In this document: positions 20,920 to 61,000 of the stretch, piece after piece
Layout of the letters: each line of letters opens with the position of its first letter
Position numbering within the stretch: the first letter of the stretch is position 1
Origin: Heliocidaris erythrogramma
Lineage: Eukaryota > Echinodermata > Echinoidea > Camarodonta > Echinometridae
Direction of reading: 5' to 3'
NCBI GenBank assembly: GCA_025617745.1
Contig: CM046871.1
Span: 28,846,433-28,910,432, forward strand
DNA: 64,000 nt
Translations under genes and position numbers: made by a program
Notes under the pieces: model-generated
What the model saw: only the letters and a program-made list of their open reading frames with translations
What the model was told of the DNA's origin: nothing
The model's database searches: none

Positions 20920-21598
20920 ATCTCTGTTGTCATCTGTATCTCGCGAGTGAACTGTTTTTTCCCCCTCTCTTTTTTATGAAATGTTGTTAATATGACTCTA
21001 TCCAGTTAGAGTCTTCGGTATTCATGTCTCTCTGGGGATCTTGGTTACGGCACCTGTTAGCTTTGGTCCATTGAATAATGCACATGTCACGTTTTTTTTT
21101 TTTTTTTTTTTTTCTGTCCGTGATCCGAGTAACATCCATATTCCATATCCTCATTTTGTGTACCTTTTGATGTAAAAAAAAACAAGAAAACACATCAGGA
21201 GAGACGGATACATAATGGATTTTTGTTTGTTAAAAAGAAAATCATTTTTGTATACCTATTTTCTATTTTTTACTTTTTTGTAATTTTTGTTAAATAAGTA
21301 TTATTACCAATCCTTAATTGATTTGTTAGTTTATTTCTAATCTTTCTATCCTATTTAATTTAGTTTGTATAATTTCCTGACCCTTCCCCCTTTTGATTTT
21401 TTGGGGCTGTGTGTTTGTTTATTTTCTTGCACTGATTTTTTTTTTCTTTAATAATGTCTGCCTTTTTTTATTTTCCCCTTTATCACTTCTGTCTTTCTCC
21501 TGTAATCTATCTTCTTCTCTTGCACAGACACATGAGCAGGAACATGGTATCGTGTATTCTCGTTAGGCGTTACAATTTTATTTCCTCCTCCTCCTCCT
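20920..21598 (+). other. Probable 5' UTR region of the downstream LINE
   Basis: T-rich sequence leading into the retrotransposon ORF at 21599. I found no ORF1-like protein here and cannot place the 5' end of the element. A T run lies at 21091-21113. Confidence 0.4.
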
Positions 21599-24500
21599 AT
21601 GGCCGATTTATCTGAGTTTCCTTTCAGCTCGCTCAATCATGACGACCTGTTGTCTCTCTCATCACAGCATGCAGCTACCTTTATGCGAGAAAATTCCCAT
21701 TATGATTCATATATAAAGAATTACTTTAACGATAACACTGCCGATCTAAATTTTAACTTTGATCCAAATGACCCATGTGGGCAGCTCATCACTTCACAAT
21801 ATTTTACAGAACAAAATTTTAAATCTTTCATTAAATCTAGCAATTCTGAAGATGACATTTTTCTCCTTCATCTAAACATTAGAAGTGCCAATAAAAATTT
21901 CGATAAACTCAAATTATTCCTGGATAACAACATGTTTCCGAAATCTTCAATTATTGCTTTAACAGAAACGTGGTTTTCGGAAAACCCATGTTCCCTTTTT
22001 TTACTCACTGGTTTCAATTTGATTGTTAATAACAGAACTCGTAGACCGGGTGGCGGTGTTGCGCTTTACATACCGCAACAATATGAATATACTCTTATAG
22101 GTAACATGACTATATCCAACGATATTTTGGAATCCCTTTTTGTCGAAATCAGAAACCCCAAAGGAAAAAACGTAATACTGGGTGTTTTGTACCGACCTCC
22201 ACAATCGAATACTCAAAATTTTATGGACACCCTGAATGAACTTTTACTAAATCCTCTGTTGAAAAATAAAGATTGTTTTTTTATGGGGGATTTCAACTTT
22301 AACTTAGCTAATTAGCTAATTAGCTTAGCTTCGCAAGAGTTTCTTGAAATATTTTTATCTAATTCTTTCTTACCACTTATCACTAAACCAACGAGAGTAA
22401 CAGATAACTCTGCCACTATTATTGATAATATTTTCAGTAATATAACTTCTCCGACCCCAAAAGCTGGTGTTATCCTTAGTGACCTTTCTGATCACTTTCC
22501 AATTTTTGTTAAGTTTCGTACAAACAAACTTGTTAGTAAAGAAACGTTTAATACTCCATATCGTAAAATAAATGACGAAAACATTACCCATCTAATCAAT
22601 GATTTGGGGAGTACAGATTGGTCGACTGTTTTTGACTCCTCAGATGTTGATGTAGCTTATGACTCTTTTATCGCCAAATTGACCTTTTCTTTAGATACAC
22701 ATATTCCCCTTATCACCAACCGGAAATCAAATTATAAAAAGATTCCAATTCACCCTTGGATTACAAAATCGCTTTTGAGATCTATCAACAGAAAGAACAA
22801 TCTTTATTATAGATATATCTCCAAACCAAGTGATGTCTCTCGTTCTAAATACACCTCTTATAAAAACACCCTCACCTCTTTGTTGCGTATTGCAAAAAAA
22901 GAATACTACACTTCTCAACTTAATATGTACAAAAATGATACCAAGAACACATGGAAAATTATTAATGGTGCATTGAATAAAAAGAAAAAGAGTTCTTCAA
23001 TCACAAAAATAAAAACAAGCAATACCTTAACCGATGACAATAACATTATCGCAGGAAAGTTTAATTCATATTTTTCACAAGTTGGTAACAATCTGGCGAA
23101 GGAAGTGCCGCAAGCTAATAAATCTTTCAATGATTTCCTTGACAACCCTAACCCTAATTCCATGTTTTTCAATCCTACAAATACGAGTGAAATCATCAAT
23201 ATTGTCAGCAATCTGCAGAATAAGAAAAGTCCTGGGTTTGACGGCATTCCTAATTTCCTTTTAAAGAAAATTATCATAGCTATCGTTGATCCCTTAGTGC
23301 ACATCTTTAATATTTCTCTTCACACAGGACGAGTCCCTAATAAAATGAAAATTGCAAAAGTTATTCCCCTTTTCAAAAAAGGTGACAGTCAACTTGTTTC
23401 TAACCATCATCCAATATCCCTACTAACCTCGCTATCTAAGATTCTTGAAAAAATTGTCCATACAAGAACAACACATTTTTTCAAACAACACAACATTTTC
23501 TCAAACTCCCAATTTGGGTTTCGGGAAAACCATAGTACCTCTCATGCAATTTTGTCATTTATTGATAAAGTCACCACTTCTATTGATAAAGGTTGTCACA
23601 CTGTTGGTATCTTCCTGGACTTCTCCAAGGCCTTCGATACCATAAACCATGATATTCTTCTACATAAACTTTGTCATTATGGAGTTAGAGGGAAGGCCTT
23701 GGAGTGGTTCAGGAGTTACCTCACTAATAGGACTCAATTTGTATCGGTTAACAATTGCAATTCTTCTACTCTTCCAATTACTTGTGGCGTGCCGCAGGGT
23801 AGACTACTTGGCCCTCTACTTTTCATTACGTACATTAATGATATACAAAAATCTTCTAATTTACTGTCATTCATACTCTTTGCTGATGACTCAAATATTT
23901 TCTTTTCTCATGCTGATGTTAATCAACTTATTACAATTGTAAATTCTGAATTGACATATGTGACCGATTGGATCAAGTCAAACAAACTTTCACTTAATCT
24001 CCAGAAAACAAATTACATGTTATTTAGTAATAAAATCAATAGTTTACCGGGCAGTATACATTTCGATAACCATGTTCTTGATAATGTTTCTATAACAAGA
24101 TTTTTAGGAGTTCTTATTGACAACAAATTATCATGGAAACCTCATATCGACAGCACATGCCAAACAATTTCTAGAAATATCGGAATCATTAATAAACTCA
24201 AACATTTTCTTCCTTCTCGAACATTGCTGACACTTTATTTCACATTGATCTTTCCATATATTAATTATGGAATTATAGCTTGGGGATGTGCAATAAAAAC
24301 ACAATTAAACCGGATATTACTTTTGCAGAAAAAGGCTCTAAGAATATTTCAGACGCAATTTAGATCACATACCGATATATTATTCTTTGAAAACAATATT
24401 CTGAAAGTAAATGACATATATCTTTTCCAACTCGGCCAATTCATGTACAAATTAAGTAAAGACTATCTCCCCGCAATTTTTTCTGATTATGTTCCGCAAG

Positions 24501-24704
24501 AATACTTCTATACATAACTACCCAACTAGACAACGAAACTACTATCATCTACCATTAACAAGAACTTTATTTGCAAAGAACTCATTTGTTTACTCTGGAT
24601 CTGCATACTGGAATTCTCTGCCTCATGATTTTAAAGAATCCCCTAGTATTAATGCTTTTAAACGTATGCTTAAAAAAATGTTAATCTGTCAATACTCACA
24701 GTAA
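21599..24704 (+). pseudogene. Non-LTR retrotransposon endonuclease-RT ORF, broken twice
   Basis: One reading frame runs from ATG 21599 to 24517 with a single in-frame TAG at 22313-22315. The N-terminal part is an APE-type endonuclease: TETW, RRPGGGVALY, YRPPQ, GDFNFNL before the stop and SDHFP after it (about 22487-22500), so the stop splits one domain. The RT follows: LDFSKAFDTINHD, CGVPQGRLLGPLLF, LFADDSNIFF, FLGVLID. Near 24490-24515 the frame shifts by one; the C-terminal tail (NYPTRQ, SGSAYWNSLP, SINAFKRML) continues in the next frame to TAA at 24704. Motifs place it in the Jockey/L2/CR1 group; the exact clade is uncertain. Relatively light damage suggests a fairly young copy. Confidence 0.88.
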
Positions 24705-30424: not shown

Positions 30425-30831
30425 GGATGGACCCTGATAGCAGAAAGTGTTAAAAATGACGTGATATTTACGTCGTGGTTTTCGTCTTTTTTACGTCCTG
30501 TAATTACGTCAATAAGACGACAACTTGCACCAACGGAAGACGTCAAGAGGACGTCTTATTTTGACGTCATCTCTACGTCTTGTACACTGTAAAAACTAAA
30601 GTGCTACTTTTAGGGGAATGTATAGTGACTGCACCTGAAATTCTGTTTATAGCACTTGTAGTGTGCTAATTTACCAGCAAAAAATAATGTGACCGTGGCG
30701 AGCCCCGAACCAGGCTCCGCTGATTGAGAGGCGCTGACGTTACCGATGGACTAACGAATGCTTCTTGCAATCCAGTTTAGTCATGGGAGTCAAGTAGATA
30801 ACATGAACTATGTGGTGTCGTAAATTCACTA

Positions 30832-33103
30832 ACTAGAAAGGCCGTCAAAGCTAAGGCGGCAGACCCACGCCTTTAATAGCGGCGCTATTATTCTCGAAAC
30901 TGCAGAAATAAATATATTTTTACTGGTTGGTTCCCCTGTCATGTATAAAAAAAAGTAAACCCAATATAGGTTTTGTTTTGTTGCGATTATTTTTGTAAGC
31001 AGTAGCCATTCAAAGGGGATAACAAGAGGCACATCTCCCCCCCCCCCCCCCCCCTCAAATAAATTTTGCCATATCCAGGTCATAACTTTGTGTGTCCCCA
31101 CCCTTGAAAACATTCTTCTGAAAAAGATATATTATTGAAACATCCCTCCCCTAAAAGTAATTGATTAGACATGTCAGAGAGCGTGGCGTGGTGAGGAAAA
31201 AAAATGTTAGCAATTTGTATTCAGTGTTCAGTCATGTCAGTGTTAGTAAATGTATTCATGTTCTATCTTTACATTGCAATTGGGGTTGTTGTTGTTTTTT
31301 CATCGGGCTTGGATAAAATAAATATGACGACAAAATAAGTTGGATCTCGACTTCAAAATGACATGCATGCGAGGCACAGAGCTTACTCACTCAGCTCATT
31401 AGTCACCACCCATCAACAAAGTCAAAGTGTATACTGGCGTACATTCGGGGAACCTCAGCCACCAAATTTTGCAAATCCACACGAATTAAAAAAAAAAATA
31501 CATACAGTTTTTGTATATATTTTACAACTACGAAATCCACTCAAACATTTATGAGTTATAAAAACAAACTCAAATCTCAAATGACAGGACCGTAATAACC
31601 CAAAGAAAAACGTTCAATCCTACTACACAGCCACAGGCACTGTACTCCCTAGACCGAATATTCTGTCTCCAGTACGTTAGCCTCTTATTTGGGTAGGGTC
31701 GGCTACTACTTGGAGACAGAAGCCGGCCTATCACTTTGCTGTGCAAAATTTGTCTATGGCGTTGTGACGTTCTAGTCTTGTACAAGGCAAAATGATTATG
31801 AAGGAAAAAATACGATAAATTCATTACGAACTCGTGCACATTGATTTCAAAACGGTTATTTCTTTAACACTAAATATGTTTTTTTAGGAGCATTAAATGG
31901 ATCATAAAGTCAAATTGGTATGTTGAACAGATTAAGTATATGAATTAGAGCCTAGGCCTTATGATTATTTTTAAAAAAATACAGAGAAAAAATGATTTTT
32001 TCCTACTGTTCCAGCAGGCACAACGCCATAGACAAATTTTGCACAGCAAAGTGATAGGCCGGCTTCTGTCTCCAAGTAGTAGCCGACCCTACCCAAATAA
32101 GAGGCTAACGTACTGGAGACAGAATATTCGGTCTATGTACTCCCTAGCCCGACCAGACGCCGTCGCTTCGCGACAGCGCTGTGTATATATAGCCTACCGT
32201 ACTCTCACAACCACACAGCCCATTCACAGCACACGCGAACACTCGCGAGTGCGATAGACTCACTCATGTCGAACGAACTCACCAGATTTTCACCGAAAAC
32301 AATTAAAATCATGTACTACACGTCCACCAGGATAAAATAAATCACAAAAACTTCCACAACAAAGTGGAAAAACCAGGGAAAATAAACAGAAATGCACAGA
32401 AGATAAGAAATAGAGGAGAAATTAGACGTGCTAGGCCTAGGGTAGCCTGAATCTAAATGAAGTTGTAGATAATAAAAGGTATCGCGCGCGATAGCCGCTT
32501 TCGATTTCGCAGTACAGTTCAAGCGCGCGAAAAATCCCTTGTTGCTGGGATACGTTGGCAGGGAACAATAGATATGAATATTCATTGCAGGCTCGTACGG
32601 ATTTGAAGTGAAATGGCAAATAATGGGTCTTCTAAAATTCATAAACCTGAAATAGATTTTTGGTGAGACGAAGTAATGAGTGTTTTGATTGGCCAAAATA
32701 TTTCTGCATCGGCAGGCGAAGTTTGGGGTCATCAAACTTTCTAGTTTCTTTCCTGTCACTATCCGAACTGAAGTTCCTATACTTTACTACAGGGTCAAAA
32801 CTTCAAGGTCACACAGAATTTGCAGGGGTCAACCAATCATTACCAAAATCTAATCGATTCTTTCCTGTCACTTTCTGAACATTCCCTGAAAATTTGGTGC
32901 AAATCCGTTCAACCGTTCTCTCGTTATCTTGTATACACAAACAAACACACAAACAAACAAACAAACAAACAAACATACGGAGCCCTTTACATAACCCTGC
33001 CGATTTCATCGGCGTGATGGGTAAATACGGAGCCCTTTACATAACCCTGCCGATTTCATCGGCGTGATGGGTAATAACCCTGCCGATTTCATCGGCGTGA
33101 TGG
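30832..33103. mobile_element. Composite insertion in copy 1, ending in an RTE-like tail
   Basis: This is the sequence between TTCACTA (30831) and GTAACAATATG (33104), which are contiguous at 42329-42341 in the intact copy. It contains the hairpin element at 31653-32135 and ends with an RTE-LINE-like 3' end. Whether it arrived in one step is not clear, and the left boundary family is unknown. Confidence 0.5.
31653..32135. mobile_element. Hairpin element with 117-bp perfect arms
   Basis: 31650-31766 and 32019-32135 are perfect reverse complements separated by about 250 bp. The direct repeat TGTACTCCCTAG lies at 31641-31652 and 32136-32147, a probable 12-bp target duplication. The arm start TAGACCGAATATTCTGTCTC recurs in the small hairpin at 34334-34398, so this is a family. 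The spacer has no gene. Confidence 0.75.
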
Positions 33104-33106
33104 GTA
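32700..33106 (+). repeat. RTE-like LINE 3' end with tandem tail units
   Basis: AAAATTTGGTGCAAATCCG, TTCAACCGTTCTCTCGTTAT and an ACAAACAAAC array, then three tail units containing ATAACCCTGCCGATTTCATC and GGCGTGATGGGTAA (two of about 49 bp and one shorter, 32975-33106). RTE-clade LINEs commonly end in a TTYA..GTT..ACAAAC block with short tandem tails. The element is severely 5'-truncated. Confidence 0.6.
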
Positions 33107-34333
33107 ACAATATGATCTGCTCTAAATCGTACAATGTGAGTTAAGGCGGATTCACACCGAACACGACAAACGACAAACGACACGACACCACGATATGAAC
33201 GATTTTCTGAAAAATCGCTCTAATGCAAACCCTATGGCACCGTGCACACTGTCACGTCATCTTTCGAAACGTCGTACACGACGTTTTTAGGGGTTTTTAG
33301 TCGTTTCAGAAAATCGCTCAGCGAGCGATTTTCCCAGCACGACAAAACGACATTTTGGCCACCAACCAATTAGCGTGGAGGATTCGAAGTGACGTCACAT
33401 TTATCCCCAGCTAGTTGATTTATAGCAGAAACTTTTCATTTCTGCAGATCAAATCTCTATAGGGTTTTACGTGTAAATTAGTTTATCGCACCGCACAAAA
33501 AGTACCATAGAGCTATAGGCCTACACAAAATTGCCTGCATGATTAATCTTTGGCTTTGCATGGTTGAAAGGTTGCTGAAATTTTTTTTTATCTACGGTAA
33601 GTAAGACTAATACTATTAATTATTATAATTAGATGAGAGGTTCTATAGATTTAATGTTTGACCAACTTAACAAAGGCCAATGTTTGACCAACTTTACAAA
33701 GTCAAGACCAAAACTAACGTTAACATAATATAATAACTGTACTGCGGACTGAATGATGGCTAAACCTAACTTTTATACTTAGCCCTAGCCTAGGCTACGG
33801 TTATGAGCAACTTAAATATGACTTAGTATAGCTAGATCCCTGACCCTGGCTCCAGATCCGGAGGGGGGGGGGACTCATTTTTTTTGTTCAGACGGGGGTG
33901 TGGCGCAGCCGCCCTCGAAACGGGTGTCTGTTAAGTATTAAGGAACGGAATTAAACTTAAAGGGCAAAATACAGTGTGGCCAGCGAAAAAATACTATTCT
34001 GCTAGGCCTAGGCCTAGGGAAAATCAAAATATTTTACTCAAAAATTTGGGGGGTGTATTCCTAGTATCTTACTCAAACATTCTCTGACAAGCAAAAAAAA
34101 AAACCACAAAAACAACAAAACACCAGAATTATGCTAGATTTTTTTAAATTATGCCTAGCATAAAATGCTAGATGCTAAAGCTTTCAAAATTCTGCCAGAA
34201 AGCAGAACTCTGCTAACCATACACAGCGCTGTCGCACGCGGCGTCTGGTCGGGCTAAATTCTGCCAGTCTGGCAACCTTGAAAATACAGAGTGTTGGGAA
34301 CTACGGAACCAGGTCCAGGCCCACTAACTTTGT

Positions 34334-34398
34334 TAGACCGAACATTCTGTCTCTCGTTCGTTAGCTCTCGAAGAACGAGAGACAGAATTTTCGGTCTA
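34334..34398. repeat. Mini-hairpin of the TAGACCGAA family
   Basis: TAGACCGAACATTCTGTCTC and its mirror (one mismatch), about 28-bp arms with a short loop. The motif CAGGCCCAC lies on both sides, possibly a 9-bp duplication. Confidence 0.55.
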
Positions 34399-34532
34399 CA
34401 GGCCCACCAGCCGAGTGAAAAATTTGGTCTTGGGAACTGCATAGAAATTGCAATGTCTTGGGAACTGACAACCTTTATTTTAGGTCGTCCGTATGAGTAC
34501 TACTATAGTAAGTTACAGCGGGTCGTCAAAGC

Positions 34533-34606
34533 GGCACATAGCTATAGGGTCTACCCGTCTGTCTAGTATATTGAGTCCCCCCCCCCCCCCCCCCATGATC
34601 TAGATC
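34533..34606 (+). repeat. Poly-C block also found inside the CR1 LINE
   Basis: GCACATAGCTATAGGGTCTA followed by CCCGTCTGTCT, a C17 run and ATGATCTAGATCT. The same ~75-bp block, with few changes, occurs at 35641-35720. Confidence 0.7.
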
Positions 34607-35541
34607 TAACTTAAATCTACTTAACTAGATCTAACGTAGATCTGTTAGATGTAACTGTCTATCGTTTAGGCCTAGACCTAGATCTAATTTCTAACAACAG
34701 GTAAACTCCAGCCTGGTCCGATCGAGGACCAGTCCAGGTCCAGGAGTCCAGACAGTGTATCTGGCTGGCCTGGCAAGCGGAGGTGGCATGGTCTGGATAT
34801 GACTATCATGACTAGTTCTAGTGTCTATAGACAGAGAGAGAGGGGCTCCCCCTCCCCCAAACAAAAACAAAAACAAAAAACAAAAAACACTGCGCTGGCT
34901 GCAAATTTTGAACCTGTCACTGACTTTTTTTTAGAGTCTAGAGCCTAGCCCTAGACCATCTACTTTACATTAACTTTAGCCTATTGTTTATGTTAGTTCT
35001 TTATAATGAAGAGCCTAATTTTTTTATTTTTTTTGGGGGGGGGCGGGCTTGTAAGCTGGCAATACGATTCTGATACGATTCTGACCCCAAATCTTGAATT
35101 ACAATCCAGAGATCAGACAAGAGGACATACTAGTAGTAGAAAATTGTTTTCTGGTGCAGGCGATTCGTAATCGTACGCTTAATGGGCTCATTTTTCCAGC
35201 ACCTATCCAAAGCTAGGCATACTTCAAAACTGTGCACACTTGGGGCAGTAATGGTGTCGTTGGAAAGATTATTCCATGGTTTACGTATTCGTACATAGAA
35301 TTTTTTTTTGTATCTCTGAGTTTTAAACTTAGAGACATTTCTCTTATTTGTACTACCTAGGGATACCTAGCCCTAGGGAAGATACTGAACATTTCCCAAA
35401 GCATGTATATGTTTCTTAAGGTGGGGGCTCCACACAGCATGAGCGTACGTATTTGGGGACGAACAAGCGATTTGTACAAGACTGAGTGAAAAATTATCCT
35501 TATCTAAATAAACAAAGGTTCGTCTGATTAAATTCATTAGT

Positions 35542-35822
35542 CTATTTGCCTTATTGATATTTGTATGTAAATATTCTTCAAAGTTTAGCTTATCATCAAT
35601 CACCACTCCCAAATCTCTCTCAGATGACACTTGCTTAAGGGCACATAGCTATAGGGTCTACCCGTCTGTCTGGTATATTGAGTCGCCCCCCCCCCCCCCC
35701 CCCCCCCCATGATCCAGATCTATTTGCCTTATTGATCTTTGTATGTAAATATTCTTCAAAGTTTAGCTTATCATCAATCACCACTCCCAAATCTCTCTCA
35801 GATGACACTTGCTTAAGGGCAC
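35542..35822. repeat. 100-bp direct duplication bracketing a copied poly-C block
   Basis: LINE sequence from CTATTTGCCTTATTGAT to CACTTGCTTAAGGGCAC occurs twice (about 35542-35644 and 35720-35822). Between the copies is the block that also exists at 34533-34606. Confidence 0.75.
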
Positions 35823-36084
35823 TTTGCGAATTATCACTGGTCATATTAGCCTATACACATATGGACTTGCCAGGGCAGACTTGGGGTTACCAATGGCGAG
35901 AACAGTACATTTCTTAGGGTTGAATCTAAGCAACCATTTGTCAGACCAGCATTTGAGCCTATCAAGATCCCTCTGATCTGAAGGGCAATACAATCATTCT
36001 CATCTGTTGTGGACTTGAAAATCTTTGTGTCATCAGCAAATAGATATACACTACTCTCAGAAATCGTGTCAGGTAGATCATTTA

Positions 36085-37779
36085 CACTGTTGGTCATAAT
36101 GGTAGCATAATTCGTTTTTTCATGGTCATCCGTTGATTTAATCATATTTAAAAGCCTAAATAGATAATATTGACCAGGTTCATTGATTACATAATGATTT
36201 TGTATTGTCGAGGTAAAATTCGCTCAAGTGAAACATTCCATCACGTGGCCTATCTTATTGTTTGGTGCTATGAAAGGCAGAGTCTCCTTTCTGCTGTTGT
36301 TTTGCTGTCCATTTCGTGCAGAAAGCCTACGTGTGTTAACAGCCCGTTTTCAGAGTTAGCTTGATCAATTCCTACCACATTTGGTACACTGATTCCTTAC
36401 ACTATGCCTCGCCCAACGGCACTTCCAATTCGCCAGAGGGTCCTTGCGCTGCGACGGACTGGACGGACACAGGCCCAGATTGCAAATATTCTTGGACTAT
36501 AGCAGAGTTGTGTGTGCCGCATCCTCAGAAGACATCGAGAGGCGGATACTTTGAGTCCAGAGAGATCTATAGGTCGACCACGAAGAACATCCGCACGGGA
36601 TGACCGTCAACTGCTGAACATGTGCCGTAGGAACCGGAGAATGCCAGCGAGTCGTCTTTGCCACTTGTGGAGGAGGCACTTCGGAGTGAACGTTTCACGG
36701 GAAACTGTAAACAGGAGACTTGTCCAACATGGCTACAGAGCTCGGCGAATGACCAAGGTTCCATGTCTCACTGTTCGCCACCGGGTTGCTCGACTCCAGT
36801 GGGCTAGTAGGCACAGGAGATGGCAGCTTGGTCACTGGCGCCATGTAATCTTCACTGATGAAAGCCGGTACATCCTTGACCGCACCGATGGGAGGCAGAG
36901 GGTTCGACGATTGCGGGGCGAGAACCTCCGTAATGACTGTGTCCAGGAAACCAATCAAGTAGGTGGAGGCTCAGTGATGGTATGGGCCGGAATACATTAT
37001 GGCGGAAAACGCCATTGGCTGCACCTGAAGGAGACATCAACGCCGTCGTGTACCGCGATATCCTGGAACGCCATTGTCTTCCATACGCGAGAAGAGTATA
37101 TGGCAATAACTTTCAGCTCCAAGACGACAGCGCTCGACCACATAGGGCACGTCTGGTGAGGGAATTCCTTGAGGCAGAGGACGTGCAGCAGATGCCTTGG
37201 CCTGCCTGTTCCCCCGACATGAACCCCATTGAGCACGCCTGGGATGCATTGGGCCGTGCCATCAATGAGAAAAACAATCATCCTCAAAATGTGCAGGAGT
37301 TAGCCCAGGCACTGACCGAAGAGTGGGATGCACTGCCCTTGAACACCATCAACAACCTTGTGGACAGTATGCCACGGCGTGTGGAGGCACTGGTGCGTGC
37401 CAGAGGTGGCCATACCCGGTACTAAGTGACCCAACAAGATTAAAAAGAGGAACACTTCACTTCAATAATCAAAAGATCCCAAGATTTTATTTTTCACGAT
37501 AAACTTATCATGGTTAAACATTTACCAAAAACGATACATTGTTTCAAGGAATTCAAGGTCTTGCATGATTGTGTTTGTCAAAAGTGGTTTAAGCCAGTGT
37601 AAACCAGTTTGTATGAATTAATTTTTGTCTTATATTTTTTATTTCATATGTTGAGAACAGATTTATCGATACAATCGGTGAAGATATATGCTTTATTTTG
37701 CAAAGAAATGACTCGTATTGTTGCCAATAGTGTACGAAAGGTAGGAAAAAAAATTATGCTACCATTATGACCAACAGTG
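36085..37779 (+). mobile_element. Tc1/mariner transposon, 1695 bp
   Basis: Perfect 28-bp terminal inverted repeats (CACTGTTGGTCATAATGGTA at the start; mirror ends at 37779) lie between TA duplications at 36083-36084 and 37780-37781. Removing the element and one TA joins the two halves of the CR1 RT in frame at its conserved LYIND motif, which independently proves the boundaries. It encodes the damaged transposase at 36404-37425. Confidence 0.93.
36404..37425 (+). pseudogene. Tc1-like DD34E transposase, one stop and one frameshift
   Basis: ATG 36404 opens MPRPTALPIRQRVLALRRTG, a helix-turn-helix DNA-binding start, but TAG at 36500-36502 interrupts IANILGL/QSCVCRIL. The frame continues with the GRPRRT hinge, HVIFTDESRY (first catalytic Asp) and GGGSVMVWAGIHYGG. 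A one-base loss in an A run near 37010 shifts the frame; then FQLQDDSARPHRAR (second Asp) and SPDMNPIEHAWDALG (Glu) follow, ending in GGHTRY at 37425. Counting from the Asp aligned with the family's QDNARPH motif gives 34 residues before the Glu, so DD34E. All catalytic residues survive but the protein cannot be made intact. Confidence 0.9.
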
Positions 37780-38229
37780 TATATACAACACAAACAACAA
37801 GGGCCCAAGAACACTACCTTGTGGAATTCCACTTGCAACAAGACCCCAACTGGAATATTCTCCATTCACACATACACGCTGTCTTCTCCCAACTAGAAAT
37901 GCTTCAATCCAATTAACCACCAACTCACTTATTCCATAGGTTCTAATCTTGGCAAGCAGCCGACGGTGGGGCACCTTATCGAAGGCCTTCATGAAATGTA
38001 AATAAATCACATCAATTGAACCATTTTCCTCCAGAGTGTTAGACCATTCATCAACTACGTTTATCAGCTGGAGCATTGTTGAACGACTAGGCAAGAAACC
38101 ATACTGCTTGACACTAAACAATTTGTTTATAGTCATATGATCCAGAATCTCATCACGAATTATTGATCTAGATCTAACTGTTAGTTTTTTTTCTTTGTCA
38201 TTGTTGAGTGACAGAATGATGGGGGTCCG

Positions 38230-38880
38230 CTCGATAGTCATAAGGACCGCTAATCGCTATTCATAAAAAATATAAGGACCACTATTCATGATAATACATA
38301 AGGTCGCTATTCACAATACGGAAAGAGGGTCGCTAGTCATAATACCAAATCAGGGTCGTTTATCATAAGGGTCGCTATTCATAATCGAAGAAGAGGGTCA
38401 CAATCCATGAAGAAGAGGGTCGCTGATCATAATCAGAGAAAAAGGTCGCTATTCATAATTGAGGAAGAGGGTCACTATTCATAATCAAAGAAGAGGGTCG
38501 CCATTCACAATCTAAGAAGAGTGTCGCTATTCATAATCGAAGAAAAGGGTCGCTATTCATAATCAAAGAAGAGGGTCGCTATTCATAATCGAAGAAGAGG
38601 GACGCTATTCAAAATCAGAGAAAAGGGTCGCTATTCATAATCGAAGAAGAAGGTCGCAATTCATAATCGAAAAAGAGGGTCGCTATTCATAATCGAAGAA
38701 GTGGGTTGCTATTCATAATTGAAGAAAAGAGTTGCTATTCATAATCGAAGCAGGTCGCTATTCGTAATCGAAGAAGAGGGTCGCTATTCATAATCGGAGA
38801 AGAGGGTAACTATTCATAATCGAAGAAGAGGGTCGCTATTCATAATCGAAGAGGGTCACTATTCAGATTTGAAAAAGGAA
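38230..38880. repeat. 26-bp minisatellite
   Basis: About 24 copies of GGGTCGCTATTCATAATCGA plus AGAAGA, with occasional shortened units. There are no unique spacers, so it is not a CRISPR array. Confidence 0.9.
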
Positions 38881-40285
38881 GAATTGTCAATAGGGGAAAA
38901 GGGCAAGGGGGAGACATTTGTCAGAAGTAAAAAACAAAAACAAAAGGGCATCCATAAGGTTTTAAAAAGGGCACTTGTCAAAATGGGAAATGGGCATTTC
39001 TAAGAAAGGGAAATTGTCACTTATTCAGAAGGAAAGAAGGGGCGCTCATCAGATTTGAAAAAGGGCACTTAAAAAGTGGCAAAAGGGGGACTTAATTGAA
39101 AGGAAAAGGGGAAATTACCAGAAGTAAATATAAGCACTCATCAGATTTGAACAGGAGAACTTGATAGGATGGGGAAAGGGTGTTCTTATGGAAAGAAAAA
39201 AAATACACATATCAGAGGGGGAAAAGAGCACTTTATGGGTCCTTGGAAATTGGGTGGAGGTGCTGTGCCCCCGCCCCCCCCCCCCCCCTCCCCTCCAGGG
39301 TCGCCTCTGGGGAAAAGGGGCATGTTTGTATCAGTACATATTGTTAGGCTGTCCTGTGTTTCATCATTTCCTCCCCGTGGGTCGTCGGTCTCATAAGATT
39401 ATCCCAGCATATTTTTCTATAATAGGTACGAAGCTATATTTGAGAAGTCGCAATGGTTTTGGGGTACAATTCAGTTATAGACGGGAACTTCTCCAAACTT
39501 AGTGACTTTTTAAATTTATTAGGATATGTATCATATGTGTATTGTTTTATGCCATTTATGACCATACATTTCTGTGTTGATACATTTATGGCAACTGCCG
39601 TTTTTTAACAAGGAACAATGTCGATTAAAAAGTACAGTGAACTCATGCCTGCGTGGAAGAGGGATTTCGAAAAAACATATTGCAGTTCCTGGTTCTCTTG
39701 TTTTTTCAACATTGAAATGTTGGATTTTACATTGTTGATGTGTGACCTCCAGATTCACAATATAGTACAGGTATAAATCAATAGATGATTCTATAAAGAG
39801 AATGTATTTTCACTAATAATCATGGTATTTGAAGAACTGTTGTTTGAAGTAACAAAGAAATACGATGTTTAAAAAGTACACGCAAAATATGGGAGGTACT
39901 TGCTTCGCTTGCTGGATCGCTTGCTTTCAACATTGAAATGTTGAATAGAATAGAACAATGTTTTTTTTTATTTCTAATATTAAAAAAAAAAAGAATACAA
40001 TGAAGCCATATCTGTGTGGGAGGGGGAATTCCAAAAAAAAATGTTTCTGGTTCTTTTTTTAACAACATTATTGTTGGATTTTGCATTGTTGCAAAATTCA
40101 CGGTATGTCAGGTATAATCAAAGGATGTTTTTAAAAAGGCAGTGTATCTTGACTCATGATCAAGATGGTCCTGGTATTGAATATATTGTTCTGATAATGA
40201 GTGGATTTAATGAAACATGCAGTCTAGACATATTCAATCCAGGCGTCCATTGACAATGAACATGATCTTTCTGAATTGTTCGTGT
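38881..40285. other. Degenerate repeats and intergenic sequence
   Basis: 38880-39200 holds irregular units around GGGCACTCATCAGATTTGAA. A C run lies at 39276-39289. From about 39540 a pair of diverged copies shares 'GTACA(G/A)TGAA.TCATG', 'TTCGAAAAAACAT' and 'TTGGATTTTACATTGTTG' (39590-39760 and 39960-40130). No gene. Confidence 0.5.
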
Positions 40286-40506
40286 CAGTGGCGGATCCAG
40301 GGGGGGGGCACGGAAGTCCCCCCCCCCCCCCCTTTGGAAGAAAAGTATGCATTTTGACCATAAAGGACCGCCCCCATCCCCCACCCCACCCCCGCTGAGC
40401 GACTTTTCGAGAAGCTGGCCAAAAAAATACGGGTCTACCTTTTCCAAAAGTTGACAAACCTGCATTAGTATGCCCCTCTCATACTAAATGCTTGATCCGC
40501 CCCTGG
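40286..40506 (+). repeat. 'GTGGCGGATCC' poly-C element with both ends
   Basis: It starts CAGTGGCGGATCCAGG plus a G run and ends CTTGATCCGCCCCTG, i.e. short inverted ends. GTTCGT flanks on both sides suggest a ~6-bp target duplication. Internal order is as in the other copies: AAGAAAAGTATGCATTTTGA, C run, GCTGAGCGACTTTTCGAGAA, TACGGGTCTACC. The inverted ends favour a MITE-like rather than SINE-like identity. Confidence 0.65.
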
Positions 40507-40990
40507 TTCGTATGATTTTTGTTGTAAAATGATACCAGAGACGTACTCAGCATAACCCTGACAGACCCCAACTGATTTCCACAACAGCCCTGTCAGCATT
40601 TATTATGCACATTAATCTATTTTTAAAGATTGACATGCAGATAAAAGAATACAATCCTTTGTAGAAAATACTACCAAAGAATTAAATTATATTACCTATA
40701 CACAAAATCCAGATTTGAATACAACTAAGAATTAGATTGAAGAAAAGTGTGTTTTCCAAACTGTAATTTAAAGTCTTTAAATCAACTATTAATTAGGGTT
40801 ATTCAGTGACAACTTAAAAGCATTCAACGACCGACTATTTCTTTGATTCACACTAAGGCTGTTCCATCGTGTACATCCCATGTATTCAAAAGTAAGGGGG
40901 AGAACAAGATAAAATCATACAGAAAGTAGGACTCGCTAAAGAGAGAGAAGAAAGCTTGAGAGTGAAGGGAATTACTTTGTAAAAGTGCCT

Positions 40991-41212
40991 CTTCCCCTTT
41001 TGATCTCTGATAAGCGCCCTGTTCATTTTGTGACGTGCCCATTTTCAGTCGACAGTTTCCCAACTTCCTTTGAATTAAGTGTCCATTTCTCTTATAAAGT
41101 TCTTCCCCTTTTGATCTCTGATAAGCGCCCTGTTCATTTTGTGACGTGCCCATTTTCAGTCGACAGTTTCCCAACTTCCTTTGAATTAAGTGTCCATTTC
41201 TCTTATAAAGTG
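40991..41212 (+). repeat. Exact 111-bp tandem duplication
   Basis: CTTCCCCTTTTGATCTCTGA through TCTCTTATAAAGT occurs twice head to tail with no differences that I can see. Confidence 0.9.
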
Positions 41213-41920
41213 CCCTGTTTTCTTGGCGCCCCTCCTCCACTTTGGAAGTCACTCAGTCGCCCCTGAAGACAAGACTAGACTACAAGCAAACCACCTCGGC
41301 CCCCAGAAAAGATGATAATATAAATGTCTGACATGTTAATGTCAGAGTCGTCACTCAATATTAGTAGGCCAGGGAAGGGAAGTGTCAATTCATATGTATA
41401 ATGCTGTATTTTTCTTCTCTAATATGTATATTGTTTCATAACAATTCACGTCAGGCTTGCCCCTCGTTTGTTTCGTTCCCTTCATTGTATTTTTTTAAAA
41501 ATTGGTTCAGCTAAAGTCGGCCAAGTCTACTTTATTATTTATCATTCGTGCGTGAACCTACATATCCCGCATCCAAAAGTAAAAACACAAATTTCTCACG
41601 GAATTAGTGTCACTTTTAGTTTATTGCATTATAGGCCTTATCACACACCCCCCCCCCCCCCCCTATATCCATCACCACCACCACCACCTGAACCTCCAAC
41701 AAAAAAAGAGTAATTGTTTGGTTCACGGGGACCGGGGGCTGCAGACCCCACAATTTCGCCCAACAACCTCCCCCCCCCCCCCCCCCCCCCCCCCCCCGCC
41801 CTAGTAAAAAAAATATGTATATAATTGTTAGTTGCTCATTTCACAGGCTTGCAAAACCATAAATTTACAATTAGAAAGAAAGGAGAAAATTGGAGGGTAT
41901 TCGGTTGTGATTGACATATT
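41213..41920. other. Intergenic, poly-C rich, no gene seen
   Basis: C runs at 41648-41663 and 41770-41797 surround a CAC-repeat tract. No supported ORF. Confidence 0.5.
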
Positions 41921-42724
41921 CCCTGATAGCAGAAAGTGTTAAAAAATGACGTGATATTTACGTCGTGGTTTTCGTCTTTTTTACGTCCTGTAATTACGTC
42001 AATAAGACGACAACTTGCACCAACGCAAGACGTCAAGAGGACGTCTTATTTTGACGTCATCTCTACGTCTTGTACACTGTAAAAACTAAAGTGCTACTTT
42101 TAGGGGCATGTATAGTGACTGCACCTGAAATGCTGTTTATAGCACGTGTAGTGTGCTAATTTACCAGCAAAAAACAAAATGTGACCGTGGCGAGCCTCGA
42201 ACCAGGTTCCGCTGATTGAGAGGCACTGACGTTACCGATGGACTAACTAATGCTTCTTGCATTCCAGTTTTGTCATGGAAGTCAAGTAGACAACATGAAC
42301 TATGTGGTGTCGTAAATTCACTATGTAACAATATGATCTGCTCTAAATCGTACAATGTGAGTTAGTCTAGCGGTAATGCCAGCAATTCTCGATCAGTGGA
42401 CCCTGGTTCGAAGCTCGCCCAAATCATTTTTTTTAATGAATGTTTAGCAGTTTAAGGAGCCGGTCCAGCTCCCGTGAAAGTGCTGAAATAGCACGCTGTG
42501 TGCATTCAATAGCACTTTGAGTGCAGTCCCTATGCATGCCCTCAAAAAGTGCTATATACAGCACTTCAGTTTTTACAGTGTACATATGACGTCAAAATAA
42601 GACGTCCTCTTGGCGTCTTGCGTTGGTACAAGTTGTCGTCTTATTGACGTAATTACAGGACGTAAAAAAGACGAAAACCACGACGTAAATATCACGTAAT
42701 TTTTACCACTTTCTGCTATCAGGG
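41921..42724. mobile_element. Intact inverted-repeat element with divergent tRNA-like modules (copy 2)
   Basis: Outer arms of about 150 bp start CCCTGATAGCAGAAAGTG and end with the mirror. They share GTCGTCTTATTGACGTAATT-type sequence rich in ACGTC. Inside lie GTACACTGTAAAAACT (left) and its mirror (right), then a tRNA-like block on each side of the centre pointing outward. The right block has A box TAGTCTAGCGG (42363-42373), B box GGTTCGAAGC (42405-42414) and a T8 run (42427-42434). The left block (minus strand, about 42265-42180) has B box GGTTCGAGGC and T runs. No protein is encoded. Confidence 0.78.
42363..42434 (+). promoter_or_regulatory. tRNA-like Pol III promoter and terminator
   Basis: TAGTCTAGCGG fits the A-box consensus TRGYNNARNNG at every position. 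GGTTCGAAGC fits the B box (GWTCRANNC). Box spacing is about 42 nt, and a T8 terminator-like run follows. The cloverleaf does not close well (no matching acceptor stem seen), so it is called tRNA-derived and not a tRNA gene. Confidence 0.6.
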
Positions 42725-43162
42725 TTATTGCAGGTATATTGGTATTGAAGTAAGTATACTTGATAGATTGTGAAGTATAAGACCAGTTAGAAGGAGAGGG
42801 TGCGTGAGGGGTCCTATCATTTCACAACTTTCCCCTTGGCCATTTATTTCAACCCCCTCCCCCCCCCCCCCCCCCTTCAGTGGCTGCACCAAATCGTAGA
42901 GAGAATAATATTTTTTTTTATAGGTTTCGGAAAATGTGCATATAATGTCACAGAGGTCAGATTTAATGCCAGGGAGACCATCATCGGTTGTGTTGTGTCA
43001 TGGACAATCAGTGGCGTAGCCAGGATTTTTCAGTTGGGGGGGGGGGGCAGACGCGTAAACAGGATTTAATTTAAGGGCGGTTTTATTGGGTGGTGTAGGG
43101 GGATTTCTTCCCGCCCAAAGCTCTGACGTTTTATAGCAAATTTTTGAGAAAGATAACGGCTT

Positions 43163-43283
43163 CCCTGATAGCAGAAAGTGGTAAAAATTACGTGATATTT
43201 ACGTCGTGGTTTTCGTCTTTTTTACGTCCTGTAATTACGTCAATAAGACGACAACTTGCACCAACGTAAGACGTCAAGAGGAC
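43163..43283 (+). repeat. Solo left arm of the CCCTGATAGCAG element
   Basis: CCCTGATAGCAGAAAGTGGT through ACGTCAAGAGGAC matches the outer left arm of copies 1 and 2, then switches to unrelated sequence. It lies just inside the right end of the 10.4-kb element. Confidence 0.7.
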
Positions 43284-43900
43284 ATGAACAATTTAACAAC
43301 TTTTAGAAAATCCAAATCAAGAATAAATGATTTCAAAATTTAAAAATATAAACTTCCGTCTCATCTTTGTAATTATTTTGATGACTGCAATGATGAATTT
43401 CAAATAAATTCTATCACGACATTCTCATCATCAAAGACGACATCACCCTCTCTCCAGCACGACTTTTTAGCGAATGTCGTGTGCGGTGTGCACTGATTTT
43501 TTGCCGTTTGTCGTGTAGCCTGTCGTGTTGTCGTGTCGTGTGTCGTGTGTCGTGTTCGGTGTGAATCCGCCTTTAGTCTAGCGGTAATGCCAGCAATTCT
43601 CGATCAGCGGACCCTGGTTCGAAGCTCGCCCAAATCATTTTTTTATGAATGTTTAGCAGTTTAAGGAGCCGGTCCAGCTCCCGTGAAAGTGCTGAAATAG
43701 CACGCTGTGTGCATTCAATAGCACTCTGAGTGCAGTCCCTATGCATGCCCTCAAAAAGTGCTATATACAGCACTTCAGTTTTTACAGTGTACATATGACG
43801 TCAAAATAAGACGTCTTGCGTTGGTGCAAGTTGTCGTCTTATTGACGTAATTACAGGACGTAAAAAAGACGAAAATTTTTAACACTTTCTGCTATCAGGG

Positions 43901-58003: not shown

Positions 58004-61000
58004 TATCATTATCCTATATTGATGTTATCTTTAATCCCCATCCCCCAGCTTAATTGTTTATAATCTCCTCTTATCCCTTCCTCTCAGACCACTTCCTGAT
58101 TAATGTAAACATTTCCAGATACCAGCACCTTTACCAATAAATCAGCCCCCTACCCTGTATACTCCCAAATCTTGCCACATGGCATTGTTGACCCAATAGG
58201 CCACAACCCCATAAATGTATCCATGCCTAGTACTTTGGGTCAGGATAGACAATTGAAACAGAGTATTCCGGACGTCATAGAGTTAGTCACCACTAGACTT
58301 GTCCTCATATTTGTAATATTCATTTACGTCTTCAGTATATGAATAAATGCAATGCTCTTTGAACTGAAAGTGACTTCGTCACTGCATCATCATAACTGTG
58401 GTATGAGACTCTCTATACTCAAGAGACCTAAATCTGTAACCTATACGATCCCAACACGACATTATCAATATCATTATCATTATTATCATTTCATTATTAT
58501 TTTTTCGTTCACTTGCTTGCTTGTCAGAAATTTCTCGGCATTCCCCCTCCCCAATTTTCAGACTCCTTGGTCCGCCCAAGGCCTGGAGATGATGTCCTTT
58601 CTTTCTTCTTTTTCCCCCTTTTTAGGTCGCTATTGTCATTCCCTTCAGAGATCGTAATGTCCATCTGGCAATGCTTATACACAACTTGATTCCATTTCTT
58701 AAAAATCAAAAGTTAGAATTCGGATTCTTCGTCGGAGAACAGGTGAGCAATATCACTTTGTATCAAATGGATAGATATTGAAATAGTTGAATAGTTAGAT
58801 ATTGAAACTATAGTTAAATAGCTAAACTGTTACAGTTAAAATGTTAATTTACAAGGTAGTCAAATAGTTGAACAATTAACTTAAATATATTTAGATAGTA
58901 AGATAATGAAATGTTCGGACATTTCAAATGTATTAAATTGTTAAATAATCAAGCAATGACCAAATAAAAATCGCAGCCCCCCCCCCCCCCCTGAATCGCC
59001 TACTGCATTTCGTAGTATATACATATATATATATATATATAGGCACTATTAAAAATTTGCCTTCTCTATATAACTCTTGTAAATACACAATAGAATCTTT
59101 GCCAAATGAATGTAATACCGATTATTTTACGTTATGCGAGTGTGTGTACCAACCGAGGGAGAAAATTATTAATATTTGAAAGGTGAAACTTCAAATGCAC
59201 TCTAGATCTTCAGAGCCCAAACAGGGTGTTCTACCTTTAATAAATTATAAGAACTTGTGGCATAAAAAAAACAAAAAAAAACCAAATTGTCTCCCCGGGA
59301 TTACCGCCCCTACATAAGGATTACAGGTACGCCCGTCCAGTAAAAACGAAGTTGAATAACCTTTATGGGGGGGGGGGGCATTTATTTTGACACATACTTG
59401 CCTGTGAACGTAAAACATCGTGGATGCATATCTGATTGGGCCATCTTTTATGATTATATTCAATCCAGATGTGTTCTTCGCAGTTGCATACAAAATGTAC
59501 AATTTATGTCTATTTTTGCAGTATAATAACTTGGATTTCAACCGTGGTTTAATGAAGAACGTTGGATACCTAGGGGCGACTACATTCGGGGACTGGGATT
59601 GTGTTATTTTTCATGACATTGACTTGATTCCTATGAAAGTAGAAAACTACTACGGATGCGATCACTTCCCTAGGCATCTCGCAGCTTACACAGAACAATT
59701 TAAGTATCGGTAAGAACTTTGATATGTATATATATATTTTTTTTTTAAAATAAATGAATGCTGCCTATTTTCTTTAAGCAGTCTTTGGTGGTGTCATTGT
59801 ACACGTATGTCACCTCACACGTCTCACAATAGTATAATGCAATATATTCACCTTGTCATTCAGACAATCATATCCTCAAATGCCTAACCTTTTTCTCATT
59901 TTTCTCCAGCTACTGCATGTATTTGCTTTCCTGCAATCAATCCTTTATTTCAGATGCGAGAAACGATAATGTTCTTTATTTGTTATGGGTGTTCCCAACA
60001 CAAACTTTGCTTTCCGGGTTTTCGCCTCTTATTTTTTTTTTACTGGAATAGTCACTATACGTTTATCACCAGGGACGGACTGGTCATCGGGAGTTTGGGG
60101 AGTTTGATTAAGAAATTTCATAAAACTTGGTTGTAATTTAAAATATAAAAATAACTTTAAAAAAAGAAATAGGTGGAGGAGACTATTAAAATTGATACAT
60201 GGCTTGTATTTTCACCGACCTCTCATCATCTTTTGTTACAATTACTCTATATAAATAAATAACATAAGGAGGAACGTGCTTACTTTAACACTACTAAGAT
60301 GTAATTGAAAATATAATGATGACTTATATATAATTGTGGTAGGAAATGAACATGTAATGAAATCATATGAAATCAAACTGGTGCCAAACAACTCTGTGAG
60401 TTTTTGCAACGTGTGCGGTAGTCGATTGGTTTAAACGCAGGAGATGCGTAGGTCGTGGGTTCGAACCCCGACACACGATCCTAGTGTCACTTGGCAGGAC
60501 ATTAATCTACATTTGCCACTGCTCGCCCAGGTGTTAAATGGTCCGGTAGGAAAGAATTCCCCGACAGCCACCGGCACCGAAAGCGGGAGAGCCTATAACT
60601 CGGAGCCGGGGTAATATTGAAGCGCTTCCAGCACCTGTCGTGGTGGATAAAAGCGCTATAAACAATATCCAATATTATTGTTATTATTGTTTCTTTCTCT
60701 TTGTTCTTTTGACGAAAGTTTGCCGTATGAGGACATTTTCGGCGGAGTGGTTGGACTGACGGCCGAGCAGGTCCGCCAGAGTAACGGCTACTCCAACGCC
60801 TACTGGGGGTGGGGCGGCGAAGACGATGAGCTTTTCAGGAGGTTGGATCGCAAGGGGTTTAAAGTCTCCCGCGAGAAAGTGTACGGTTACTACAGATCAC
60901 TTCAGCACAAGCCGAAAGTAAAATCACAAATATGCCCAGAAGTGTAAGTTTTTGTTCCAAACGTCATAGTAGATTGTTTGTGATGTGGTAAAATGGTTGG

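Follow-up and report, generated by a model that had tools for sequence, protein, structure and literature searches.

An 804-bp inverted-repeat sequence at positions 41921-42724 of the window (the whole 64,000-nt stretch of Heliocidaris erythrogramma DNA analyzed here) probably represents a young, high-identity, MITE-like family of non-autonomous cut-and-paste DNA transposons, built as an inverted duplication with one tRNA-like block in each arm. The near-full-length copies in the genome, the boxes that these copies carry, and the 2-bp target-site duplications (TSDs) at their ends together indicate a non-autonomous DNA transposon of the cut-and-paste type. Potential use of the blocks by Pol III is a separate question, and is graded separately below.

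Structure of the element

Sequence inspection and self-alignment defined 41921-42724 as a single inverted-repeat element of 804 bp. Its terminal inverted repeats (TIRs), arms, center, boxes, and flanks are as follows.

41919..41920, no strand: left TSD, TT, with TT on either flank
41921..42087, + strand: left TIR with the CCCTGATAGCAG end and 11 ACGTC/GACGT motifs in its first 151 nt (arm alignment, motif count)
42088..42168, + strand: left inner arm, the stretch from TIR to block, which aligns to the right inner arm with many gaps
42176..42179, - strand: left T-run, terminator-like, T4 in this copy (T-run of at least 4 in 30/30 copies)
42193..42203, - strand: left B box GGTTCGAGGCT, 1 mismatch (box scan)
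42235..42245, - strand: left A box TAGTCCATCGG, 1 mismatch (box scan)
42248..42359, no strand: center, where the arms have no homology (half-versus-half alignment)
42363..42373, + strand: right A box TAGTCTAGCGG, 0 mismatches to TRGYNNARNGG (box scan; perfect in 27/30 copies)
42405..42415, + strand: right B box GGTTCGAAGCT, 1 mismatch to GGTTCGANNCC (box scan)
42427..42434, + strand: right T-run, terminator-like, T8 (T-run of at least 4 in 30/30 copies)
42438..42567, + strand: right inner arm (half-versus-half alignment)
42568..42724, - strand: right TIR (arm alignment, 30-copy consensus)
42725..42726, no strand: right TSD, TT (flank comparison)

The first-pass annotation had reported an outer and an inner inverted repeat, and both were located: the outer repeat CCCTGATAGCAG lies at 41921-41932 with its reverse complement at 42713-42724, and the inner repeat GTACACTGTAAAAACT lies at 42072-42087 with its complement at 42568-42583. 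They are parts of one arm with a 9-nt side-to-side difference, not two distinct repeats. In the arm alignment, identity was 96% between 41942-42066 and 42580-42704 (125 nt), and it was also 96% for the two 25-nt segments at the arm ends and in the inner stretch; the two sides are offset by one 9-nt and one 1-nt shift. In a 30-copy consensus, the left and right terminal arms agreed at 154 of 157 aligned positions. The ACGTC/GACGT motif occurred 11 times per 151-nt arm, whereas the count averaged 0.22 and never exceeded 4 in 20,000 shuffles, and dense motif arrays of this kind are often transposase-binding sites. No stop-to-stop ORF of at least 130 aa overlapped 41921-42724.

The two outward-pointing tRNA-like blocks of the first-pass annotation, each with a B box and a T-run and the right one with a perfect A box, were recovered by the box scan near the middle of the element, the left block on the - strand and the right block on the + strand. 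The scan used the strings TRGYNNARNGG and GGTTCGANNCC, which we take to be the consensus sequences of the A box and B box, respectively. The starts of the two boxes are 42 nt apart in both the left and right blocks. The left T-run of this copy lies 13 nt beyond its B box, and this run is T7-T11 in 25 of the 30 copies compared. A scan of both strands, requiring a perfect A box and a B box with at most 1 mismatch at a distance of 38-70 nt, returned 1 match among twelve 64-kb Markov sequences (mean 0.08) and 2 matches in the window, both in the family of this element.

A cloverleaf was not the best fold of either block (fold z-scores of -0.40 and +0.58), ARAGORN called no tRNA either across the window or across the 20 copy loci scanned (of 30), and Rfam gave no match at the gathering score in the window or at E ≤ 10 for the element. 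The term "tRNA-like" therefore refers here to promoter boxes at tRNA spacing, not to a tRNA, and true tRNA genes were rejected on the same grounds. Exact-pattern scans of the viral_contigs and genome_contigs collections, which consist of viral and prokaryotic sequences, returned 0 matches.

Genomic copies and target sites

A search of the genome (1.06 Gb, 26 contigs) gave 524 first-look candidates for the element. Among these, all 40 copies that were scored, including the window copy, were near full length with 95-100% identity, and they were spread over 20 of the 26 contigs. The 30 best-scoring copies were retrieved for comparison, with L001 denoting the window copy at 41921-42724.

Identical 2-bp flanks were present just outside the CCCTGATAGCAG ends in 27 of the 30 best-scoring copies, whereas permutation of the right flanks (20,000 trials) gave a mean of 4.1 and a maximum of 13 matching copies of 30. 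The dinucleotides of these 27 copies were TT (6), AT (6), GT (4), TA (3), AG (2), and TG (2), with GA, GG, CA, and TC seen once each, or ten kinds altogether; the GG of L005 falls in a G-run. Such variety indicates a 2-bp TSD and not a fixed or TA-specific site. The copies without a TSD were L012, L020 (ends decayed), and L023. Flanks of 3 bp matched in only 2 of the 30 copies, namely L005, in its G-run, and L013, as judged by eye.

The 30 copies were 0.6-2.75% away from their consensus, and their tree was star-like, with 2 of 27 inner branches well supported; judged by these best-scoring copies, this suggests that the family expanded in a recent burst. Two forms were distinguished among them. 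Form A is 804 bp long (11/30 copies), and form B, the commoner among the fetched copies, is about 960 bp long (19/30; L002, L005, L008-L011, L013-L015, L017, L019, L021, L022, and L024-L029). Form B consists of a whole form A preceded by an additional left arm (positions 1-151) and a ~10-bp linker, mostly CATTCCTCTT. The TSD was found in all 19 form B copies, outside the extra arm, and in 8 of the 11 form A copies. In the clade of L008, L013, L015, and L028, the inner left end is altered and the TSD is still at the outer end, indicating that the outer end was used there. On the tree, which is weakly resolved, the two forms were partly intermingled, with 6 changes needed compared with a shuffled mean of 9.1; this would fit repeated switching between ends, although so weak a tree cannot prove it. 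The oriented L014 locus also contains, at 852-1052, a truncated form B copy in the opposite orientation with two tandem left ends, located 288 bp from the full copy.

Second copy and nested insertions in the window

The window contains a second, interrupted copy of the element, together with a terminal fragment of a further copy.

30432..30831, + strand: second copy part 1, with the left TIR, left block, and most of the center (alignment)
33104..33143, + strand: second copy part 2, with the remaining center, ending where the right A box starts (alignment)
43163..43283, + strand: further copy, terminal fragment, element positions 1-122 (self-comparison)
43573..43900, + strand: second copy part 3, with the right block, inner arm, and right TIR, with small deletions (alignment)

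When its parts were joined, the second copy showed 96% identity to 41921-42724 over 757 columns, with GA / GA as its outer flanks. Both blocks are present in it; its left B box has two mismatches, and a later insert splits its right A box. The interruptions are a 2.27-kb insert and a 10.4-kb element. The 2.27-kb insert (30832-33103) lies in the center of the second copy and terminates in three units with ACCCTGCCGATTTCATCGGCGTGATGGGTAA. The 10.4-kb insert (33144-43572) interrupts the second copy where its right A box begins. This insert has TIRs of its own (AGGCGGATTCACACCG... / AGGCGGATTCACACCGAACACGACA, 47/50 matching at the termini) as well as a TTA duplication. The copy at 41921-42724 is nested within this 10.4-kb insert. 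L003, on contig C4, has the same surroundings as this first copy, with the similarity ending 10 bp before the end of the 10.4-kb element, and these shared surroundings indicate that the first copy was probably carried along at least once.

Several other repeats were seen in the window. A Tc1/Tc3-type helix-turn-helix transposase piece (PF01498) lies within the 10.4-kb insert at 36506-37156, and overlapping direct repeats of about 71-81% identity were found by self-comparison at 38254-38886. Pieces of a non-LTR retrotransposon occur at 21539-24514, where two open stretches contain an endonuclease (PF03372) and a reverse transcriptase (PF00078).

Homology between the two halves

The left half of the element was aligned to the reverse complement of the right half, segment by segment, and the scores were compared with those of shuffled sequences. 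The TIR segment scored 293 (shuffled maximum 13.5), the inner arm 36.5 with many gaps (shuffled maximum 11.5), and the block 82 (shuffled maximum 10.5), whereas the center scored -12.0 (shuffled mean -5.9, maximum 11.5). When gaps were counted, left-right identity was 74.7% in the block and 48.1% in the inner arm; without gaps, the values were 83.8% and 85.3%, respectively. The stronger retention of the block over the inner arm when gaps are counted would be consistent with the block being used, although it does not test this.

The homology of the arms runs from the element end through the block, which argues for one inverted duplication and not for two SINE captures. On the plain reading of these alignments, a unit of TIR, inner arm, and block would have been inverted and duplicated once, after which the interior diverged and the TIRs stayed alike. 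The earlier suggestion that a MITE had captured a pair of SINEs is not supported as stated, since the two blocks are homologous to each other within a single long inverted duplication. The single ancestral block may ultimately have come from a SINE head.

In a small sample of 150,162 bp outside the elements, the only block matches at E ≤ 1e-3 were those of the second copy in the window. Two tRNA-headed SINE-like repeats were noticed in the window, at 60419-60680 (+) and 10385-10120 (-), and their 3' parts share CCAGGTGTTAAATGG and GCGCTATA. Neither of these repeats matched the blocks of the element at E ≤ 1e-3.

Conservation of the blocks among copies

A block was scored as present when its A box had at most 1 mismatch and its B box at most 2, with the two boxes spaced 42 nt apart, and this cut-off was applied to the 30 best-scoring copies, L001 included. 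The right block was present in all 30 copies, with a perfect A box in 27, and the left block was present in 28, the exceptions being L010 and L029, which have two A-box mismatches. The left A box was off consensus in all 30 copies and perfect in none. A T-run of at least 4 was found on both sides in every one of these copies. On the right this run begins 11 nt past the B box, and on the left 12-15 nt past it. The first-pass annotation had raised the prospect that most genomic copies lack one or both blocks, and this did not hold among the 30 best-scoring copies (right block 30/30, left block 28/30). An accident of nesting was rejected, as the best-scoring fetched copies and the second copy in the window carry both blocks.

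Across the 30 copies, changed cells numbered 11 of 1,320 within the four boxes, compared with 330 of 22,663 elsewhere. Counted as distinct changes, there were 10 in the 44 box sites and 219 in the other 757, or slightly fewer per site in the boxes. There is no clear sign of box-specific selective constraint in these copies, and the family is too young to tell.

Comparison with known elements

The element resembles MITEs and other non-autonomous TIR DNA transposons in its TIRs, its short TSD of fixed length (27/30 copies), its lack of coding capacity (no ORF of at least 130 aa), and its many near-identical copies (40/40 scored of 524 candidates). It differs from MITEs in that its arms extend into Pol III-type boxes that are paired, divergent, and followed by T-runs, and its 804 bp are long for this class. 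The first-pass description of a DNA-transposon-like shell with divergent Pol III promoters therefore stands for the anatomy (TIRs, TSDs in 27/30 copies, right block in 30/30, and left block in 28/30), and its promoter part is kept here as a prediction.

Superfamilies of DNA transposons differ in their TSDs, which are 3 bp in Harbinger, the 4-bp TTAA in piggyBac, and 8 bp in hAT. Neither the length nor the sequence of these TSDs agrees with the flanks observed here, of which 3 bp matched in only 2 of 30 copies, and all three were rejected. Tc1/mariner was likewise rejected, because it requires a TA TSD and the element shows ten dinucleotides, with TA in 3 of 27 copies. EnSpm/CACTA elements have a CACTA/CACTG terminus and a TSD of 2-3 bp; the CCCTGATAGCAG terminus rules them out, although the TSD length alone would fit.

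In a tRNA-derived SINE, the Pol III start marks the 5' end, a tail lies at the 3' side, and the TSD is longer and of variable length; the element has no such end, tail, or long TSD. What the two have in common is a head with A and B boxes at tRNA spacing, a likeness confined to the boxes and their spacing. In contrast to these SINEs, the element has two outward heads, each with a T-run, as well as TIRs, a 2-bp TSD, and ends that lie beyond the predicted transcripts. SINE-type movement was rejected given the 2-bp TSDs, the TIRs, and the T-runs behind the B boxes.

The PHIS group (Harbinger, ISL2EU, Spy, and their kin) is described as having TSDs that are absent or 1-4 bp long (PMC10045372). The 2-bp TSD of the element falls within this range, which makes the PHIS / ISL2EU group a candidate affiliation. 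The CMITE elements of Acropora corals are MITEs described as ~100 bp long, with CCC...GGG ends and a piggyBac-like TTAA TSD; they also occur in tandem arrays and have a conserved internal region of 75 bases whose origin is unknown (PMC2872659). CMITE and the element are alike in having a conserved interior and tandem forms, but they differ in the TSD. The main text of the CMITE paper contains 0 mentions of tRNA or Pol III (PMC2872659). Among the open-licence matches listed, no report of a MITE or TIR element with Pol III boxes was recognizable by its title or the start of its abstract, which leaves absence from print unproven. A study by Unsal and Morgan (1995), cited in the CMITE paper, reportedly concerns, to go by its title, inverted-repeat SINEs of Xenopus with DNA-mediated transposition, and may be relevant.

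Discussion

In the proposed mechanism, a transposase supplied in trans would mobilize the element as DNA, binding the ACGTC-rich arms and the CCCTGATAGCAG ends and leaving the 2-bp TSD. TFIIIC and Pol III would recognize the blocks, giving two short outward RNAs of ~80-95 nt that end at the T-runs. This predicted recognition, with its two RNAs, stands outside the confidence that we place in the transposon itself, and the chances for and against it are about equal. Because the T-runs begin 11-15 nt behind the B boxes, the predicted RNAs would miss the TIRs, which argues against SINE-type spread, and RNAs of this kind, without the TIRs, could not be a full-length transposition intermediate. If the boxes matter, TFIIIC/Pol III occupancy or a short RNA is more likely to be the reason than an RNA intermediate. 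A more elaborate version, in which the blocks are putative working divergent Pol III promoters and TFIIIC/Pol III opens the element or pairs its ends for the transposase, thereby aiding its spread, appears unlikely.

The blocks may instead be passive, that is, tRNA or SINE descendants or chance likenesses that were amplified with the transposon without meaningful Pol III transcription, and we give this account somewhat less than an even chance. It competes only with the Pol III part of the main explanation. It agrees with the lack of a cloverleaf and of an Rfam or ARAGORN tRNA, with the deviating left A box in 30/30 copies, and with box-specific constraint that is not clear in so young a family. 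It sits less easily with the arms, which are about 75% alike over the block and have both kept the 42-nt spacing, the B-box core, and the T-run. The box arrangement is also rare by chance in Markov sequences, and between the arms the block is better retained than the adjoining inner arm (74.7% versus 48.1%, gaps counted).

The origin of the blocks could also be sought in two tRNA-headed SINEs captured separately, head to head, inside an older MITE. The head-to-head tRNA-like blocks with their T-runs are what such captures would look like, and the genome does have tRNA-headed SINE-like repeats (those beginning at 60419 and 10385 of the window). Nevertheless, we regard separate captures as quite improbable: the homology spans the TIR, the gapped inner arm, and the block, as one inverted duplication predicts; no SINE tail was seen next to the blocks on reading; and, bar the second copy, the 150,162-bp sample, which is small, held no solo block. 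Movement through a Pol III transcript, with the element as an unusual SINE whose ends are inverted by happenstance, is strongly disfavored and hardly credible. The internal Pol III boxes are the only feature in its favor, whereas the T-runs are expected to stop transcripts far short of both ends in all 30 copies, the TIRs and 2-bp TSDs speak for DNA-level movement, and no A-rich tail was seen on reading.

The inverted duplication carrying one tRNA-like block per arm joins features of two kinds of repeats. SINEs have Pol III promoters and move by way of RNA; MITEs depend on a transposase and move as DNA. A recent and successful MITE-like family with two apparently intact Pol III modules bridges this divide anatomically, if not mechanistically. 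Such a family would scatter paired potential TFIIIC sites or sources of short RNAs throughout the genome, at 40 scored and up to 524 candidate loci. If the boxes are silent, the family would still be a clean case of promoter-like sequence hitch-hiking in a palindromic transposon.
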